This document shows, piece by piece, positions 49,112 to 59,601 of a stretch of 64,000 nucleotides of DNA; position 1 is the first letter of the stretch, and each line of letters opens with the position of its first letter. Below the pieces are notes generated by a model that was not told the origin of the DNA, made no database searches, and saw only the letters and a list, made by a program, of their open reading frames with translations. The position numbers were made by a program, and so were the translations under genes. This DNA is from Polymorphobacter multimanifer (GTDB lineage: Bacteria > Pseudomonadota > Alphaproteobacteria > Sphingomonadales > Sphingomonadaceae). Where the stretch lies: the NCBI RefSeq assembly GCF_014205635.1, contig NZ_JACIIV010000021.1:1-64000 (forward strand), given 5' to 3'.

Positions 49112-49669
49112 TTACTGTGCGGAAATCCATTCGAGACGCATAATTTTCCAACCATCGGGCATCTTCGCCAATACGGCGTTTTCTTCGATCACCGTATCGG
49201 TCGGCTTGTCGCTGCGATTGCCAATCATGCGGATCTTGGACACGATCCGTACCTTTGATGGACCATCGTTGAGAACAGTGCGTTCGAGCAGCACCGTCTT
49301 GACGGATTTCTGGTACTCAATATCAGCGGCAAGATGCCCGCCGATATAATCGGCCCGGCTTTCCTCGACGCCATCTTCGACGACTGTAAGATCGGGTGCC
49401 AGGCGGGCGATTGCGAGTTTGCGGTTGCCGACCTCGAGGGCGTCGGAGAAGGCCTTGAGCGCGAATTCTGCTGGACCGATATTCGTGCGGACCATCGCTT
49501 TGGGGGTTGGCGCCATATGCATGCCGCCATGGTCCATCATGCTATGATCCATCGCCGGTTGGGCTGCCGCTTCGGTAATGGCGTGACCGGCATGAGGATC
49601 AACCGGCTGCGCCATTGATGGCGTGGTGCCCAGCAAAACCCAACCTGTCCAAACAGCTGCGCGCATCAT
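49112..49669 (-). CDS. Exported NTF2-like protein of the copper operon
   Basis: 185 aa. Signal peptide MRAAVWTGWVLLGTTPSMA, then a Met/His-rich segment (DHSMMDHGGMHM) that could bind copper, then a SnoaL/DUF4440-like NTF2 fold (ALKAFSDALEVGNRKLAIARLAPDLTVVEDG ... WKIMRLEW). Its start overlaps the stop of the DUF305 gene (ATGA). Periplasmic; role in copper binding inferred from the Met/His segment and operon. Confidence 0.75.
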   Translation of the reverse strand: MMRAAVWTGWVLLGTTPSMAQPVDPHAGHAITEAAAQPAMDHSMMDHGGMHMAPTPKAMVRTNIGPAEFALKAFSDALEVGNRKLAIARLAPDLTVVEDGVEESRADYIGGHLAADIEYQKSVKTVLLERTVLNDGPSKVRIVSKIRMIGNRSDKPTDTVIEENAVLAKMPDGWKIMRLEWISAQ

Positions 49670-50190
49670 TGTGAAATTTCCTGGTTGGCGGGAAGGTCGG
49701 CTGCTCCCTTCGGAGTCGGCGTCGCTTCCAGTCTGGCGATCATGCGCTTCATCTCGGCAATTTCGCGAACCTGCGCATTGATGATGCCATCGGCGAGCTT
49801 GCGGACCTCGGGGTCCTTTATGTGGGCGCGCTTGCTGGTCATGATCGCAATCGAATGATGCGGAATCATCGCCTTCATCCAGGAAACGTCATCGACTGTT
49901 TCCTGGCTGCGCACCAGCCAGAGCGCGCCCGCGAACACGATCACGCTGCCGGCAATAATGAGCAGATTGGTGCGCTTGTTCGCATACATCGACCACATGA
50001 AGCCCAGCATGATGACCGCCATCACCGCGCCCATATAGACCGCCATCCAGGTGCGGGTCTGGCTGTAGAAGACGTGGTCGAGCGCATAGCTATTGAGGTA
50101 CATCAGCCCGAACATGACAACCGTAGATGTCACGATCATCGCGGCGAACCGGCCATAGCCCATTTTCATCTTGTCGCTCTGTTCCTGCAT
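49666..50190 (-). CDS. DUF305 membrane protein
   Basis: 174 aa. Three membrane helices (FAAMIVTSTVVMFGLMYLNS, AVYMGAVMAVIMLGFMW, NLLIIAGSVIVFAGALWLV) precede a DUF305 tail with MIPHHSIAIMTSKRAHIKD. The MIPHH motif and Met residues may bind copper. It lies 56 bp after the multicopper oxidase. Confidence 0.85.
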   Translation of the reverse strand: MQEQSDKMKMGYGRFAAMIVTSTVVMFGLMYLNSYALDHVFYSQTRTWMAVYMGAVMAVIMLGFMWSMYANKRTNLLIIAGSVIVFAGALWLVRSQETVDDVSWMKAMIPHHSIAIMTSKRAHIKDPEVRKLADGIINAQVREIAEMKRMIARLEATPTPKGAADLPANQEISQ

Positions 50191-50246: not shown

Positions 50247-51611
50247 TCAGATGCTGCGGCGCACCGGCGCGCCGAAATTCGGGTCGGTGCTGACCCGGCG
50301 TGCGACGGTCCCTTTTGGAAACTGGTAGAAGCCCGGATCCCGGTAATCGCCGCGCGCCAGATCATCGCGCACCTTTACGGTGGTGAACATGCCTCCCATC
50401 TCGATATTACCGAACTGGCCGTTTCCGACCATCATCGCCATGGTGTTGGGGGGGCCGGGGTGGCCACCATCGGTGTGCTCCTGGTGCTCAGCCATGCCGT
50501 TTCGGCCCATCTTCATGTATCCCGGCAGCATCGCCTTTACCTTGGCTTCGAGATCATCCTGATCGACGCCAGTGGGGTTGGGCACGCCGTGGCCCATGGC
50601 GTTCATCGTGTGGTGCGCCATGTGACAGTGGAAGGCCCAGTCGCCGGGGACGGCGGTGAATTCGATATCGCGCATCTGGCCGACGCCGACGATGCTGGTG
50701 ACATCGCGCCGCCACTGCGATTGCGGCCAGCGACCGCCGTCTGAGCCCGTCACGACATATTCGACGCCGTGGAGGTGGATGGGGTGGTTCCACATCGACA
50801 AATTGCCCATGCGGATGCGGACGCGATCACCGGTCCGCGCGACGATCGGGTCGATGGCGGGAAAGACCTTCGAATTAAACGTCCACAGGTCGAAATCCAC
50901 CATCACCGAAGGGTCGGGCCGCCAGGTGCCGGGATGCAGCGCCCAATTGTGCAGGATGAACGCATAGTCGCGATCGATCGGCACCGCCTCCCCTCCGCGC
51001 GGATGGATGATGAACAGGCCCATCATACCGAACGCCATCTGGGTCATTTCATCGGCGTGCGGGTGGTACATATGGCTGCCGTGCTGGCGCAGCGTGAATT
51101 CATAAACGAAGGTCTCGCCCGGCTTGATGTGCGGCTGATTGAGGCCGCCGACGCCATCCATGCCCGATGGCAGGATGAGGCCGTGCCAGTGGACGGTGGT
51201 GTGTTCCTGCAGCCTGTTGGTGACATAGATGCGCACCCGGTCGCCCTCCACCGCCTCGATGGTTGGGCCGGGGGTGGAGCCGTTATAGCCCCAGCAGGTT
51301 GCCTTTGAGCCGGGGCCGAATTCGTGGACGATCTCCTCTGCCACCAGATGGAACTCCTTGGCGCCGTCGACCATTTTCCACGGCAGGGTCCACCCATTAA
51401 GAGTCCGAACCGGCGTGTAGCGCGGATCGCGCGGACCGGTTGGCGTTGGTGCCGGCGGGCGCGTAGCCGGCATCTGCATCGCGGAATGGTCCATCGTCGA
51501 ATGGTCCATCCCGGCCATGTCATGTGTCTGCCCCGCGGCGCGATCGGCGACGACAAGGGCGGCAGCGGCAGCGCCGGTGCGGAGCAGCAGGCTGCGACGA
51601 TCGACGATCAT
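50247..51611 (-). CDS. Multicopper oxidase
   Basis: 454 aa. Twin-arginine signal RRSLLLRTGAAAAALVVADRAAG, a Met/His-rich linker (DMAGMDHSTMDHSAMQM), then three cupredoxin domains. Copper ligands are visible: HWHG (T2/T3), HPHAD, HPIHLHG and HCHMAHH (T1/T3). It oxidises Cu(I) to the less toxic Cu(II) in the periplasm. The start overlaps the stop of the TolC-like gene (ATGA). Confidence 0.93.
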   Translation of the reverse strand: MIVDRRSLLLRTGAAAAALVVADRAAGQTHDMAGMDHSTMDHSAMQMPATRPPAPTPTGPRDPRYTPVRTLNGWTLPWKMVDGAKEFHLVAEEIVHEFGPGSKATCWGYNGSTPGPTIEAVEGDRVRIYVTNRLQEHTTVHWHGLILPSGMDGVGGLNQPHIKPGETFVYEFTLRQHGSHMYHPHADEMTQMAFGMMGLFIIHPRGGEAVPIDRDYAFILHNWALHPGTWRPDPSVMVDFDLWTFNSKVFPAIDPIVARTGDRVRIRMGNLSMWNHPIHLHGVEYVVTGSDGGRWPQSQWRRDVTSIVGVGQMRDIEFTAVPGDWAFHCHMAHHTMNAMGHGVPNPTGVDQDDLEAKVKAMLPGYMKMGRNGMAEHQEHTDGGHPGPPNTMAMMVGNGQFGNIEMGGMFTTVKVRDDLARGDYRDPGFYQFPKGTVARRVSTDPNFGAPVRRSI

Positions 51612-53182
51612 GATGGGCTTCCTGGATGTCGGTGAGCGGGCGGCGGCGGCTCGGGCGATGCTGCCGGCGCGCCGTGCGCGGAATGATCCATGCCCGGCAT
51701 GTCAGCCATGGGTTGGGGCGCTACCCCTGCCCCACCGCCTGCCGCGCCGTGCCCGCTATGGTCCATAGCAATGCCGCGCGGTGTCAGGATTTCGCTGACG
51801 CTTGGCGTCTGGCCGGTGGCTTCCTGTTCGCTCGGCAGCCGCGCCCCGACGACGCGCATCAGGTCAAGGCGCGCCAGCCAATAGTCGCGGATCGCTTCCA
51901 GATAACCCTGATAGGCGTCATATTCCTGGGTTTTGGCCTGGATCAGTTCGAAAACGCCGATCAGCATGAAATTCTGCTCCTGCTGACTGCGTTCGACCAC
52001 TGTCTCGCGCGCAGGGATCAGCGCGTCGCGGTGGGTCTTGACGATATCGCTGAGCACGCGCACCCGCTCTGCGCCGAGCCGCACGGCATTGTCGGTCTTC
52101 AGCTGCAGCGCCAGCAATTGCGCGCGGGCCTGGAGATAACGCGCTTCGGCGCGCTGAACCCGAGCGCCGCCCTGGTTGAAGATCGGGATTTCGATACTGC
52201 CGGTCGGCCCCTGGATGACCGAGCCGTCGGTTTCACGCTCGCGCTCGAAGCCGATCTGGGCATCGCCGATCAGTCTTGTCTTGCGCGTTATGCCGGCAGC
52301 GTCGCGAAGGATATCGACCTCGCGCGACTGCGCCAGGAGAGCGAGGTTGCCCTGGTTCGCCATGGTTTCGAGCAAGACAGGATCGTCCTCGGCGGCGACC
52401 GGCAACGGCAGCCGGTCGCTCGTCTGCCATTCGGCATCGGCGCCGGACAGGCCGATGGTCGTATTCAGGTGCAACCGCGCCATGCGTGCCGCCACCAGGG
52501 CGCGCGCGGCCCCGATCCGCGCTTGAGCAGCGGCAGCTTCCTCGCGCTTCAGCTGGAGTTCGCTGATGTTACCGGCAGCGTAGAAGCGCCGGGCTAGCTC
52601 GGCCGATGTTGACATGCCCGACGCAACCGCCGCCCGCATGTCGGCGACTTGCTGGGTGCCGACATAATCATACCAGGCCGATTCGACATCGAACCCGACG
52701 CCAAGAACAGAGGCCGCAATAGCCAGCTTGGCACGTTCAAAGTCGGACCGGGCCAACCGAGCACGGGCCGGGAGGACAAGAAGGTCAACCAGCGGCATCG
52801 CCAGCCCCAGCGTCAGCTGACTACCGGGACCCCCCAACGCATTGAGGTTCCCGATTGTGAAGCGTGGATTGGCGACCTGAACAGCTTCCATGATATCGGC
52901 GCGCGCCAGGCCGAGCCGGGCATATTCCTCTTGCAGCCGCGGGCTGCGCAGCATGGCGACCCGAACGGCGCGCTCGGCCGTCATCGGCTCACCGAGCCAT
53001 TTCGTAACCAGCGCTTCATCGGCGCCGCTGCCGTTCTGCTCCCACCCCAGTTGCGGCGCGCCGCGCGCGGCCAGTAGCCGGTTGATTTGCGGCGGATCGA
53101 GCCCGGGCTGCACTGTTGCACAGCCCGAAAGCAACACGGCAATCGACACGAGGCTGACGACCAAGCCCTTTTGCTTCACCAT
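51608..53182 (-). CDS. TolC-family outer-membrane factor, lipoprotein
   Basis: 524 aa from ATG 53182 (MVKQKGLVVSLVSIAVLLSGC, lipobox cysteine at residue 21). The frame opens at 53236, but promoter motif P3 sits right there, so that start would precede any P3 transcript. Two helical OEP repeats follow, typical of TolC or CusC. The C-terminal tail (DHSGHGAAGGGAGVAP, DMPGMDHSAHG) is Met/His-rich and probably binds copper, unusual for a TolC. No RND pump or adaptor is adjacent. Confidence 0.88.
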   Translation of the reverse strand: MVKQKGLVVSLVSIAVLLSGCATVQPGLDPPQINRLLAARGAPQLGWEQNGSGADEALVTKWLGEPMTAERAVRVAMLRSPRLQEEYARLGLARADIMEAVQVANPRFTIGNLNALGGPGSQLTLGLAMPLVDLLVLPARARLARSDFERAKLAIAASVLGVGFDVESAWYDYVGTQQVADMRAAVASGMSTSAELARRFYAAGNISELQLKREEAAAAQARIGAARALVAARMARLHLNTTIGLSGADAEWQTSDRLPLPVAAEDDPVLLETMANQGNLALLAQSREVDILRDAAGITRKTRLIGDAQIGFERERETDGSVIQGPTGSIEIPIFNQGGARVQRAEARYLQARAQLLALQLKTDNAVRLGAERVRVLSDIVKTHRDALIPARETVVERSQQEQNFMLIGVFELIQAKTQEYDAYQGYLEAIRDYWLARLDLMRVVGARLPSEQEATGQTPSVSEILTPRGIAMDHSGHGAAGGGAGVAPQPMADMPGMDHSAHGAPAASPEPPPPAHRHPGSPS

Positions 53183-53240
53183 TTGCCGATCAACACTGTT
53201 GCTGCATTCCCTGATGTGCGGCTGCGCCACCGTCATGGGT

Positions 53241-53270
53241 TATACGCATGTCAGGATAGCGGCCCTCAAG
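53241..53270 (-). promoter_or_regulatory. ECF promoter P3 for the tolC operon
   Basis: Read on the minus strand: CTTGAGGGCC, 13 bp, GCGTATA. It is the same design as P1 and P2. The -35 part overlaps the end of the sigma gene, and the start codon 53182 lies about 59 bp downstream. Confidence 0.75.
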
Positions 53271-53862
53271 TGTCGCCCAAAATCACCGTCAGCCGCGCCC
53301 GGGCGCGACGTATCCGCGTCTCGACGGCTTTTTCACTGATCCCCAGCACAGAAGCGGCATCCGCTTGGGACAAGCCATCGACGGTGCAGAGAATGAGCGG
53401 CTCCTTCAGCTGGGCCGGCAATTGCGGAAGCGCTCGCGCCACCGCCGCCATACGTTGTCGATCGCTGACGGTTATGTCGGCCGCGATGCTTTCATCCGGG
53501 ATTTCCAGCACATCACCGCCGAGTGGCGCCGCGAAAGTGAAGAACGCACGCACCGCGCGGCGCCGCCCCCAATCGCGCGATTTGTTGATGGCAATCCTTG
53601 CCAGCCAGGTGCCGAATGGCCGCGCGGGGTCATAGGTGCTCAGCGCAAGCCAGGCTGCAACAAAGCTTTCCTGAACAAGATCGATCGCGTCATTGTTTTG
53701 GCCGACATAGCTGCGAATAAGGCGGTAGATACGGGTCTCGTAACGCTGCATCAAAATGGCGAACGCCGCATTGGCCCGATCGAGTGCCAGCACCGCCAAC
53801 TCGCCGTCGGAACACAATTCAAGGTCATGCCTTACCGCCACCTGGCGGTCGGAAGGTTTCAC
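53266..53862 (-). CDS. ECF sigma factor (CnrH-like)
   Basis: 198 aa. Region 2 is visible as ANAAFAILMQRYETRIYRLIRSYVG, then DAIDLVQESFVAAWLALSTYDPARPFGTWLARIA. Region 4 HTH is GLSQADAASVLGISEKAVETRIRRARARL. There is no C-terminal extension. It overlaps the CnrX-like gene by 4 bp and is probably released from the membrane when metal binds that sensor. It likely transcribes its own operon, the tolC operon and copC from the P1-P3 motifs. Confidence 0.93.
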   Translation of the reverse strand: MKPSDRQVAVRHDLELCSDGELAVLALDRANAAFAILMQRYETRIYRLIRSYVGQNNDAIDLVQESFVAAWLALSTYDPARPFGTWLARIAINKSRDWGRRRAVRAFFTFAAPLGGDVLEIPDESIAADITVSDRQRMAAVARALPQLPAQLKEPLILCTVDGLSQADAASVLGISEKAVETRIRRARARLTVILGDT

Positions 53863-54302
53863 TTTCCTTCAGCGGTGAGTGCCCGCGTCACGGCGGCGTC
53901 GAACTTTGCCGCCTGGTCGGGGCGCATCAGCGCCCGCATCGAGAATATGTGAGCGAGCGTCGCCTTCTGTAGCTCGCCCATCACCTGATGCGATTTGTCG
54001 ACCGCCGCCGTCACCTCTGGCCCCTCGCCGTGTTCCACGTCGATGGCATGGGCAAGTTCAGCATTGTTGGAACGTAGTTCGGCCTCTAGCGCGCGCTTTT
54101 TGACCCCGAAGCCGGACTCCAGAGCTTCGAGCCTGGCGCGCTGACCAGCATCGAGATCGAGATTATTATGCAGAAAATCATGCAGCTCGGCCGGCGGAGA
54201 CTCTGGCGCAGGTAAAATTGTCCGCCCGACCCAGGCGCCGGCGAGCCCGGCGCAAAAAGCGATCAACGCGACCAGCAGCGCATGACGCAGCCTCGGCGTC
54301 AT
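53859..54302 (-). CDS. cnrX: CnrX-like periplasmic metal sensor
   Basis: 147 aa (CnrX is 148). One N-terminal anchor helix (LLVALIAFCAGLAGAWVG) is followed by a periplasmic helical domain. The CnrX metal ligands as I recall them (H42, H46, E63, H119, M123) all appear here, shifted by one: H41, H45, E62, H118, M122. In Cupriavidus CnrX senses Ni/Co and controls CnrH through CnrY. Here the regulated genes are copper genes, so metal choice may differ. Confidence 0.85.
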   Translation of the reverse strand: MTPRLRHALLVALIAFCAGLAGAWVGRTILPAPESPPAELHDFLHNNLDLDAGQRARLEALESGFGVKKRALEAELRSNNAELAHAIDVEHGEGPEVTAAVDKSHQVMGELQKATLAHIFSMRALMRPDQAAKFDAAVTRALTAEGK

Positions 54303-54586
54303 CCTTCAGTCGCCAGCAGTGTCGCCGGCGCAAACGCCGCCTTTGCGGAAAATACCGACAGTTCCAGCGGCACCTTTTCTGGCACCGGCGTGACACTGAC
54401 ACTGGCCAACCCAATGGTCATCGCCACCGCGGCGGCGCCCAAACCGACCCCAAACGATGGACGCGCTTCACGCGCACGCACCCTCACGTCGATCCGCGCC
54501 ATCACGCCGCGTTGAAGATCGTCCGACGCCAGCGGCAGAGCCGACTGCCCGAGCATTTGCAACGCCCGATCGATACTGTCTGTCAT
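54299..54586 (-). CDS. Membrane anti-sigma candidate (CnrY-like)
   Basis: 95 aa. Start ATG 54586 behind GGGAGAA. A cytoplasmic helix-rich N terminus (MTDSIDRALQMLGQSALPLASDDLQRGVM) and a single membrane helix (VGLGAAAVAMTIGLASVSV) are followed by a short periplasmic tail. Size, topology and position before cnrX fit CnrY, which holds CnrH at the membrane. Sequence similarity to CnrY was not tested, so the assignment is by context. Confidence 0.7.
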   Translation of the reverse strand: MTDSIDRALQMLGQSALPLASDDLQRGVMARIDVRVRAREARPSFGVGLGAAAVAMTIGLASVSVTPVPEKVPLELSVFSAKAAFAPATLLATEG

Positions 54587-54611
54587 CTCGTTCTCCCGCC
54601 TCGACACGCTA

Positions 54612-54641
54612 GATACGCACATCAAGCAAACGGCCCTCAAA
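54612..54641 (-). promoter_or_regulatory. ECF promoter P1 for the sigma operon
   Basis: Read on the minus strand: TTTGAGGGCC, 13 bp, GCGTATC, ending 25 bp before the anti-sigma start codon. It is the mirror image of P2, so the intergenic region carries a pair of divergent autoregulated promoters. Confidence 0.8.
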
Positions 54642-54682
54642 TCGCCGGCAGCTTTGCCCAAGTTTTGGGCGTCGGCCGCGTT

Positions 54683-54712
54683 TTTGAGGGCCAGGTGCGC
54701 TGGCTGCGTATC
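54683..54712 (+). promoter_or_regulatory. ECF promoter P2 for copC
   Basis: TTTGAGGGCC, 13 bp, GCGTATC, 29 bp before the copC start codon. The same elements occur in P1 (reverse strand) and P3. Confidence 0.8.
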
Positions 54713-55145: not shown

Positions 55146-56057
55146 GTGGACGCCGCGCTCGGCATAATGGCGCGGTGGGCATTGGTCGCCGATCTCATGC
55201 TGCTGTTCGGCGTTCCAATGTTCGTGATCTATTCTGACGACAGCGTCGGTGCGAGGGTGTTCGCGCCCTTGCCCATCGTCGTCCTGTTCGCGGCTTCGGG
55301 CGGATTCCTGCTTTCCGCGCTGGGACTGGCGATTGCAGCGGCGACAATGAGTGGCGTGCCGCTGGCGCAGCTCGACGCTGCAACACTTGCGATGCTCGTC
55401 AACCAGACGGCCGTCGGAACAACATTTCTCGTGCGGATGAGCGTGCTCGTAGTTGCCGCCGCCTTGGCGCTGAGCCGCCGAGACGGCCGCAAACAACTAG
55501 CGGCCATCGCCCTATGCGGCGCAGTCGCGCTTGGGTCACTGGCCTGGTCGGGACATGGCGTTATGGATGACGGTCGCACTGGCATTGTCCACCTTGGTGC
55601 CGACATCGCGCATTTGCTCGCTGCCGGCGTCTGGGTAGGCGCGCTCGCATCGCTGCTGTGGTTGGTTGCCACTGGACAAAACGATGCCCCGGAATCGCAT
55701 CGCGCGCTATCAGGGTTCGCATCGGTCGGCACTGCAAGTGTGGCAGTGGTCCTGATCACCGGGCTCGTAAATTCCTGGCTGCTTGTCGGCCCTTCGAACC
55801 TGCTTTCCCTCGGCAAATCACTCTATGGCCAACTGCTGTTGATCAAACTGTCGCTGTTCGCCGGCATGCTTGCCCTGGCGGCGCTCAACCGCTTTCACTT
55901 TACCCCTGCCCTCGACCTCGCAGTGACTGCCCCTGCCTCGCGGCACGCACTGCAGCGGCTTCGCCTTAGCCTGACGCTGGAGACACTTGCCGGAATCGCG
56001 ATCCTGGGACTTGTCGCGTGGATTGGCAGCCTCGAGCCCCCGGTATCGATGCCATGA
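55146..56057 (+). CDS. copD: Copper resistance membrane protein CopD
   Basis: 303 aa. About eight membrane helices, with the CopD core (GRTGIVHLGADIAHLLAAGVWVGALASLLWL; GQLLLIKLSLFAGMLALAALNRF). GTG start two bases after the copC stop. It is thought to import copper to the cytoplasm or work with CopC. Confidence 0.9.
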   Translation: MDAALGIMARWALVADLMLLFGVPMFVIYSDDSVGARVFAPLPIVVLFAASGGFLLSALGLAIAAATMSGVPLAQLDAATLAMLVNQTAVGTTFLVRMSVLVVAAALALSRRDGRKQLAAIALCGAVALGSLAWSGHGVMDDGRTGIVHLGADIAHLLAAGVWVGALASLLWLVATGQNDAPESHRALSGFASVGTASVAVVLITGLVNSWLLVGPSNLLSLGKSLYGQLLLIKLSLFAGMLALAALNRFHFTPALDLAVTAPASRHALQRLRLSLTLETLAGIAILGLVAWIGSLEPPVSMP

Positions 56058-56149: not shown

Positions 56150-56635
56150 ATGCACAAATATCTCACACTCGCGGCATTGCTCATCGCCGCACCGATCGCC
56201 GCCCAGACCCCGCCAACCGACAATGCTGGCATGCAGAGTATGAAGCATGACGGCATGGCCGGGATGAACCACGACACGATGCCGAAACCAGCGATGCCGA
56301 CGTCCGCCACGGAGCATAGCAAGATGCAGATGATGGACCACGCGCAGATGGGTGGCATGGGCGAAATGATGAAAAATACGCCCGCCAACCCCTATGCCGA
56401 AGCTGGAATGGCGATGCACCACAAGATGATGGTTGTCGGTGCTGACGCCTCGGAAACCTGGGCCCGCCAGATGATCGAGCACCATCGCGGCGCGATCGCC
56501 ATGTCGAAGATTGCAGTGACGAATGCCAAGGACAAGGAGGTCCGCACAATGGCGCAGAAAGACATCGCCATGCAGGAGAAGGATATCGCTAGCCTGCAAT
56601 CGTGGCTGAAGCGTCATGGTGACAAGCCGCAATAG
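56150..56635 (+). CDS. DUF305/CopM-type periplasmic copper chaperone
   Basis: 161 aa. Signal peptide (YLTLAALLIAAPIAAQ), a Met/His-rich region (GMQSMKHDGMAGMNHDTM; KMQMMDHAQMGGM), then DUF305 with MIEHHRGAIAMSKIA. Similar cyanobacterial proteins (CopM) bind copper in the periplasm. No P1-P3-like motif precedes it; expression probably continues from copCD. Confidence 0.85.
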   Translation: MHKYLTLAALLIAAPIAAQTPPTDNAGMQSMKHDGMAGMNHDTMPKPAMPTSATEHSKMQMMDHAQMGGMGEMMKNTPANPYAEAGMAMHHKMMVVGADASETWARQMIEHHRGAIAMSKIAVTNAKDKEVRTMAQKDIAMQEKDIASLQSWLKRHGDKPQ

Positions 56636-57240: not shown

Positions 57241-59601
57241 ATGTCCATCTTGCCAGCTGAAGCCGCGTCAACCGCCATCGACCCGCAGCATGGGGACGCC
57301 GCTTTGTCCAAAACAGAACGCGACCCGGTTTGCGGCATGATGGTCGATCCGCACACCACGGCGCATCGCTCGGCGCATGACGGTCATCCTTACTATTTCT
57401 GCTCCGCCGGATGCCGCGCCAAGTTCATCGCGGACCCGGTGAAGTATATGACCCCTGCCGAGTTGCAGTCGCATGAGCCTGTCCCTGAAGGCACGATCTA
57501 CACCTGCCCGATGCACCCACAGATCCGTCAGATCGGCCCCGGTGCATGCCCCATTTGCGGGATGGCGCTCGAGCCAGCGGTGATGACCGCCGAGACACCG
57601 CCGAACCCGGAACTCGCCGATTTTACCAGGCGTTTCTGGATCGGGCTTGCGCTGACCATTCCGGTGTTTGTGCTCGAAATGGGCGGGCATCTGTTCAACA
57701 TCGACCATCTGGTCGCGCCGCAGGTTTCCAATTGGATCCAGCTTCTGCTGGCAACGCCGGTGGTGCTCTGGGCCGGTTGGCCGTTTTTCGAACGTGGGTG
57801 GCGGTCCATCGTCAACCGCAGCCTGAACATGTTCACGCTCGTTGCCATGGGCACAGGCGTGGCCTGGACGTACAGCGTTCTCGCCACCGTGGCGCCGCAT
57901 CTGTTTCCGCCCGCTTTCCGAGCAATGAATGGCGCTGTCGCGGTCTATTTCGAAGCCGCAGCCGTCATTGTCGTCCTGGTCTTACTCGGCCAGTTGCTCG
58001 AGCTTCGGGCTCGGGAGGCGACCGGCGGCGCAATTCGCGCGCTGCTCGACCTGGCTCCCAAGACGGCGCGTCGGCTCAAGGCCGACGGCTCCGATGAGGA
58101 GGTCTCGCTCGGACTGGTGGTTGCCGGCGATCGTTTGCGTGTTCGACCCGGTGAGGCGGTGCCGGTCGACGGCACCGTCATGGAAGGTCGATCGACGATC
58201 GATGAGTCGATGGTCACCGGAGAATCGATGCCGGTTACCAAGGAGAGCGGCGATACTGTCATCGCCGGCACCATCAACCAGACCGGTGCCATCGCCATGC
58301 GTGCCGACAAGGTCGGCAGCGACACCATGCTGGCCCGCATCGTCCAGATGGTTGCCGACGCCCAACGCAGTCGCGCTCCGATCCAGCGCGTCGCCGACCA
58401 GGTGGCTGGTTGGTTTGTGCCCACAGTTATCGCTGTCGCTATACTGGCATTCATCGTCTGGGCGAGCTTTGGGCCAGAACCGCGCTTCACCTATGGCTTT
58501 GTCGCAGCGGTGACCGTCCTCATCATCGCCTGTCCTTGCGCGCTGGGTCTGGCCACGCCGATGTCGATCATGGTCGGGGTCGGGCGGGGTGCAGCAGCCG
58601 GCGTGCTGGTAAAAAATGCCGAAGCGCTGGAACGAATGGAAAAGGTTGACACGCTGCTCGTCGACAAGACGGGGACGCTGACCGAAGGCAAGCCCAAGGT
58701 CGTCGCCATCGAACCGTTTGCCGGCATCAGCGAGGCAGACCTGCTGCGCTTTGCGGCGGCAGTGGAGCGACCAAGCCAGCATCCCCTTGCCGCCGCCATT
58801 GTCGCGGAGGCCGGAGTCCGCGGCCTGGCAGTAGAGACGGCGACCGACTTCGATGCGCCGACCGGCAAAGGTGTCATCGGAACGCTCGATGGCCGGCATA
58901 TCGCGATTGGCAACCCCGCCTATCTATCCGAACTCGGTGTCGATACCGCGGCACTGACCGAGGCTGCCGACCGCCACCGCCGCGAGGGCGCGACTGCCAT
59001 ACTGGTCGCGATCGACGGCAAGGCTGCGGGTGTCGTAGCCATCGCCGATCCGGTCAAGGAGTCTACGCCGAGCGCGCTTGCGGCCCTCAAGGCTGAAGGT
59101 ATCCGGGTGATAATGGTGACCGGCGACAACCGCGTTACCGCCGAAGCCGTCGCACGCCGCCTCGGGCTGGACGAAATCGAAGCCGATGTCCTGCCCGATG
59201 CTAAAAATGCTGTCGTCGCGCGGCTTAAGGCGGAAGGGCGGATCGTCGCCATGGCCGGCGATGGCGTGAACGATGCGCCGGCACTGGCCGCAGCCGACGT
59301 AGGCATCGCCATGGGCACTGGCACCGATGTGGCCATCGAAAGCGCCGGGGTGACCCTGGTCAAGGGTGACCTGAATGGCATCGTCCGCGCGCGGCGCCTC
59401 AGCCATGCCACCATGCGCAATATCCGGCAGAACCTGTTCCTGGCTTTTGTCTATAACGCCATCGGCGTGCCCGTGGCTGCCGGTGTGCTGTATCCATGGT
59501 TTGGCCTGCTGCTATCGCCTGCGATCGCCGCCGCCGCTATGGCGCTTTCGTCGATTTCCGTCGTGGGCAATGCGCTTCGGCTGCGCACCGCCGAGCTATG
59601 A
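57241..59601 (+). CDS. copA: P1B-type copper/silver-exporting ATPase
   Basis: 786 aa. The N terminus carries a YHS domain ([10 protein letters not shown] ... [18 protein letters not shown]) and a heavy-metal-binding domain ([22 protein letters not shown]) in place of a CxxC HMA domain. The P-type core has TGES, the CPC transport motif [19 protein letters not shown] (phosphorylated Asp) and [10 protein letters not shown]. It pumps copper out of the cytoplasm. The stop overlaps the next start (ATGA). Confidence 0.95.

Follow-up and report, generated by a model that had tools for sequence, protein, structure and literature searches.

A putative CnrYXH-type sigma factor module wired to copper genes, with three promoter-like motifs of one design, in Polymorphobacter multimanifer

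Known metal-responsive ECF systems and the copper locus

In the current model of the Cnr system of Cupriavidus metallidurans, binding of metal to the sensor CnrX frees the sigma factor CnrH from CnrYX, and CnrH then drives cnrYXH and cnrCBAT (PMC4803752). Transcription was reported to start 24 nt ahead of cnrY and 25 nt ahead of cnrC (PMC9045368). Examination of the two promoters on pMOL28 shows AAGGG in cnrYp and GAGGG in cnrCp, each followed by N17-CGTATA, with the reported start falling 8 nt past CGTAT in both cases. The same elements, with CGTAT, are found in the homologous promoters of Cupriavidus sp. USMAA2-4. ECF sigma factors linked to copper have been described elsewhere: CorE of Myxococcus xanthus (ECF238) depends on copper and turns on the genes of a multicopper oxidase and a copper ATPase (PMC10141476), and the SigAb-AabA-AabB system of Acinetobacter baumannii comprises a copper-induced ECF factor and a small anti-sigma factor modelled as wrapping the sigma factor like CnrY (PMC12153292).

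The locus described here lies in a stretch of 64,000 nucleotides of P. multimanifer, hereafter the window (Table 1). The gene assignments of the first-pass annotation hold: the locus encodes an ECF sigma factor, a PF13801 sensor, CopC, CopD, an OEP/TolC protein and a multicopper oxidase. What that annotation missed is the kind of module to which the sigma factor belongs, as well as additional distal targets in relatives. Judged by sequence comparison, the module is of the CnrYXH type, wired to copper genes: the genes for a putative anti-sigma factor (Y), a sensor (X) and the sigma factor (H) follow each other in the order Y-X-H and overlap. The start of tolC given in Table 1 opens a lipoprotein-like signal, and it is probably the true start, since transcription is predicted to begin only downstream of the ATG at 53236.

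Table 1. Genes and promoter-like motifs of the locus (window positions)
Feature	Position	Strand	Basis or remark
His/Met-rich protein, probably the final gene of the P3 operon	49112..49669	-	no family
DUF305/CopM-like protein, probably further down the P3 operon	49666..50190	-	family profile match
Multicopper oxidase (CopA-like)	50247..51611	-	family profile match; 4-bp overlap with tolC
Outer membrane protein of the TolC family, opening the P3 operon	51608..53182	-	PF02321 (OEP/TolC)
P3 promoter-like motif, upstream of tolC-multicopper oxidase operon	53242..53269	-	exact match; kept at sigma 3' end in one orientation
H, ECF sigma factor	53266..53862	-	best solved relative CnrH
X, periplasmic metal sensor, CnrX/NccX family	53859..54302	-	PF13801; five CnrX ligand positions kept
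Y, putative single-helix membrane anti-sigma factor, 95 aa	54299..54586	-	CnrY-like size, position and layout; no Pfam hit
P1 promoter-like motif, upstream of Y-X-H (sigma) operon	54613..54640	-	exact match; kept in relatives
P2 promoter-like motif, upstream of copC	54684..54711	+	exact match; in relatives with a divergent copC
copC, first gene behind P2	54742..55143	+	NCBIfam NF033814 above cut-off
copD	55146..56057	+	NCBIfam NF033808 above cut-off
DUF305/CopM-like protein, possible member of the P2 unit	56150..56635	+	family profile match
Heavy-metal P-type ATPase (copper-type, CPC motif), downstream of copCD	57241..59601	+	sequence

The likeness to Cnr extends from the gene order, the sensor ligand positions and a sigma factor closest to CnrH to the placement of promoters: in both systems one promoter precedes Y and another stands just after H, feeding an outer-membrane (TolC-like) gene, and both promoters carry (A/G)AGGG and CGTAT elements. 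Unlike Cnr, the window has copC-copD and tolC-multicopper oxidase as its output instead of the RND nickel/cobalt exporter CnrCBAT, it has a third, divergent promoter serving copC, and its GAGGG-N16-CGTAT spacer is 1 bp shorter than the N17 of cnr. Because its output consists of copper genes, we did not file the locus as a cnr or ncc determinant. The NccYXH system of nickel-cobalt-cadmium resistance, which provides the best solved relative of the sensor (NccX), likewise differs in its metal output. CorE resembles H as a copper-linked ECF factor with multicopper oxidase and copper ATPase targets, but copper is sensed by a Cys-rich C-terminal extension of CorE itself, without an anti-sigma factor, whereas H ends at residue 198, directly after region 4, and is accompanied by Y and X. 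The SigAb system differs in having the sigma gene in first place and a direct regulon of sigAb, relA and an sRNA, with the metal genes responding indirectly. In the literature searched we found neither a copper CnrYXH system nor its ECF group; the 2021 ECF reclassification and the 2019 review of metal-related ECF factors may describe the group.

We consider it very probable that a copper-wired CnrYXH-type switch drives three promoters, P1, P2 and P3, through a common promoter design. In the proposed mechanism, the small membrane protein Y and the periplasmic sensor X would hold H, and binding of a metal, most likely copper, to X would release it by the same logic as in Cnr. Free H would then guide RNA polymerase to promoters that read (T/C)GAGGG-N15-GCGTA(T/A), which in this genome would be P1 in front of its own YXH operon (a positive feedback), P2 in front of copC-copD, and P3 in front of tolC-multicopper oxidase.

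Sensor, sigma factor and candidate anti-sigma factor

The solved structures closest to X are those of NccX and CnrX (6e-20). At the positions H42, H46, E63, H119 and M123, which we take to be the metal ligand positions of CnrX, the X family keeps the first four in 77/78 members and M123 in 69/78. The best solved relative of H is CnrH (1.9e-30), the next solved ECF factor following at 9e-16. The recognition helices in region 4 of H and CnrH have K-A-V-E-x-R-x-x-R-A-R in common; conservation of the residues K, E, R, R, A and R of this helix reaches 98% or more in the family, and most of this genome's ECF paralogues depart from the pattern. In a sigma factor tree the family stands apart from these paralogues; the long branches leading to the paralogues and to CnrH do not allow the root to be placed firmly.

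The window protein Y matches the profile of the family Y proteins (2e-13), and it has the same length as CnrY, a similar start and one hydrophobic stretch. As for a class II anti-sigma factor (a CnrY homologue), the family Y profile gives CnrY no better score than shuffled sequences, and a tblastn search with CnrY found matches in Cupriavidus only. By position and layout, Y is a candidate anti-sigma factor, which would inhibit H.

The same genome encodes a second ECF sigma factor beside a PF13801 sensor-like gene (contig C4:102192-103533; L123, L129), in the order sigma to sensor; the recognition helix of this sigma factor, KAIEG, resembles that of CnrH. Near the sigma region there is a GAGGG-N16-CGTAT string, which may be there by chance.

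The nature of the natural signal deserves separate consideration. The sensor retains the five ligand positions of a nickel/cobalt sensor and has nickel/cobalt sensors as its best solved relatives, so that the promoters and the sigma factor could be as we describe them while the signal is nickel, cobalt or several metals, the copper genes being part of a general metal response. We regard this as unlikely, given what adjoins the module: CopC, CopD, a multicopper oxidase, CopM and a copper-type ATPase are the neighbouring targets in nearly all loci with enough flank, and no RND nickel exporter stands behind P1-P3 in the window, while in relatives the profiles, built from window genes, could miss other targets. 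Copper thus appears to be the inducer on the basis of the target genes, with a ligand set in the sensor that equals that of a nickel/cobalt sensor.

The promoter-like motif in the genome and in relatives

The first-pass annotation had proposed that one motif, TTGAGGGCC-N13-GCGTAT, preceded by T or C and followed by C or A, stands upstream of the sigma operon, copC and the tolC-multicopper oxidase operon. All three are exact matches with the 13-bp spacer, and the two flanking positions are correct as given. P1 and P2 do stand back to back in the divergent gap between Y and copC, which measures 155 bp, and P3 does lie at the sigma gene's own end, where it spans the stop codon, TGA (53268-53266) being part of TTGAGGG. 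The three are the only perfect matches in the 3.92-Mb genome, the rest of which contains a single match with one mismatch. The 10-base core, GAGGG-N15-GCGTA, has five matches in the 3.92 Mb (P1, P2, P3, one antisense in the copper ATPase gene and one elsewhere), and its reversed-pattern control has six. The antisense near-copy at 59063-59090 (-), which has one mismatch, was considered as a conserved promoter and rejected, being absent inside the ATPase gene of relatives; it is probably a coincidence in a codon-constrained stretch. By the rule of 8 nt past CGTAT, taken from the reported cnrYp and cnrCp starts, transcription is predicted to start at about 54605 from P1 (some 19 nt before the start codon of Y), at about 54719 from P2 (some 23 nt before that of copC) and at about 53234 from P3.

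Scanning species genomes with the sigma factor yielded 80 loci, which gave dereplicated sets of 60 regions upstream of Y and 61 regions at the sigma end. Sphingobium sp. SYK-6 also has the module, with a homologue on plasmid NC_015974.1. When spaced dyads were counted without bias, AGGG-N16-CGTA ranked first, present in 56/60 regions upstream of Y and 48/61 sigma ends, against at most 12 in shuffled sequences. GAGGG-N15-GCGTA precedes Y in 51/60; 33/60 have a divergent copy, and 47/61 have one at the sigma 3' end, where the wrong orientation occurred in 0/61; a coding control gave one match. When spacings from 8 to 25 were scanned in the 60-61 dereplicated loci, GAGGG and GCGTA were always separated by 15, the sole exception being an N16 match on the divergent strand. 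The aligned sites read (T/C)GAGGG-(G/A)T-N13-GCGTA(T/A), where AGGG and GCGTA were fixed in collecting the sites and only the remaining columns are informative. The broad consensus is (T/C)GAGGG-N15-GCGTA(T/A). The recognition motif of the first-pass annotation was therefore right in its elements, which return in relatives, and too long in its conserved core, which is (T/C)GAGGG-N15-GCGTA and not the full TTGAGGGCC: the 'GCC' after GAGG is rejected as part of the consensus, since relatives mostly have (G/A)T after GAGGG.

The three positions are conserved along with the genes. Most loci with enough flank, queried with the window's own genes, have CopD-CopC in one direction and Y-X-H-multicopper oxidase in the opposite one. 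The divergent motif tracks a divergent copC, with 44 loci having both, 29 neither, and 4 and 1 being discordant (Fisher p 5e-16). In 22/67 loci, the TGA within the -35 element doubles as the stop codon of the sigma gene. The sigma-end motif occurs at several offsets, mostly -10 or -2, and because the offset varies it is not kept merely as coding sequence. In Polymorphobacter/Sandarakinorhabdus-type loci, an additional motif was observed before a CopM-like gene inside the copCD unit (L031 2838, L038 2848, L039 2823), and in one relative (L109 4150), whose sigma homologue is a divergent one, the motif precedes a methyltransferase-like gene that runs divergently from Y-X-H in the usual place of copC.

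Enrichment of the motif upstream of genes adjoining homologous sigma factors had been set beforehand as the test of the claim that the encoded ECF factor is its user, and the enrichment is decisive. Across 150 genomes from the family, TGAGGG-N15-GCGTAT was matched 130 times, compared to 12 times for the reversed pattern. At a threshold of E 1e-30 or better, 40 of these genomes carry 49 sigma homologues. Sixty of the 130 matches lie within 3 kb of a homologue, and all 60 are in the position and orientation of P1, P2 or P3. A nearby exact match was present in 34 of the 40 sigma-bearing genomes and missing in six, two of which (L098 and L099) have near matches. Outside the family the sigma factor is rare: a class-wide draw added three other alphaproteobacterial genomes, which also have the motif, one of them (L118) at all three places. 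One distant homologue (L084 4902-6079) has the order sigma to sensor, against the rest of the family.

These data bear on a further possibility, namely that a different copper regulator, such as one of the CopR or CueR type, uses the motif as its operator and acts with the main sigma factor, the sigma gene being a mere neighbour. A position upstream of copper genes would be expected in this case as well. The motif is however asymmetric and in every case directed towards the gene; in most loci 20-30 nt separate it from the start codon of Y. Its two parts keep one fixed spacing, it follows the sigma gene across families, and it matches the CnrH promoters, all of which makes such an operator very improbable. 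The comparison thus strongly supports the ECF factor as the user of the motif, through the conserved tie to the sigma family and the presence of the same elements in CnrH promoters, and it is H that would bind the motif. That the three copies, identical at 15 fixed positions, are recent functionless duplicates or products of chance is hardly credible: chance is ruled out by the genome-wide and reversed-pattern counts, and functionless duplication is refuted by the conservation data, the 13-bp spacers and flanks being unrelated here and relatives with different spacers retaining the same three places.

Wider regulon and significance

In relatives, the motif also occurs away from the three standard places. 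It lies at a near-constant distance of about 118-127 nt before large TonB-dependent receptor genes in four loci of three genomes (L107 1871, L111 1482, L112 6149, L114 7625), the receptor identity being confirmed by Pfam in 2/4. This suggests that a copper-responsive outer membrane receptor belongs to the regulon. Several kb from the sigma gene, the motif precedes DUF411 genes (L106 1561, L107 7560) and a DUF305 (CopM-like) gene (L108 1510). In the window's genome, none of these distal targets (TonB receptors, DUF411, DUF305) was found behind the motif.

It is tempting to speculate that a large clade of CnrYXH-type switches in sphingomonads, for the most part undescribed, has been re-tuned from nickel/cobalt to copper with unchanged sensor ligands, works with a promoter spacer that lacks 1 bp relative to that of CnrH, and has extended its regulon beyond detoxification to TonB-dependent receptors. 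We advance this view tentatively, as one about which doubt slightly prevails. If it is true, the shorter spacer could insulate the regulon from that of CnrH. The family would offer a test case for how a CnrX-type sensor picks copper over nickel and cobalt with the same ligand residues, and for how a change of 1 bp in the spacer separates related sigma factors. ECF regulons usually need experiments to be defined; here the sequences of dozens of genomes reveal the sigma factor, the sensor and the promoter grammar, including three fixed promoter positions, and the motif can be used to search sphingomonads for their copper regulons, many of which are on plasmids.
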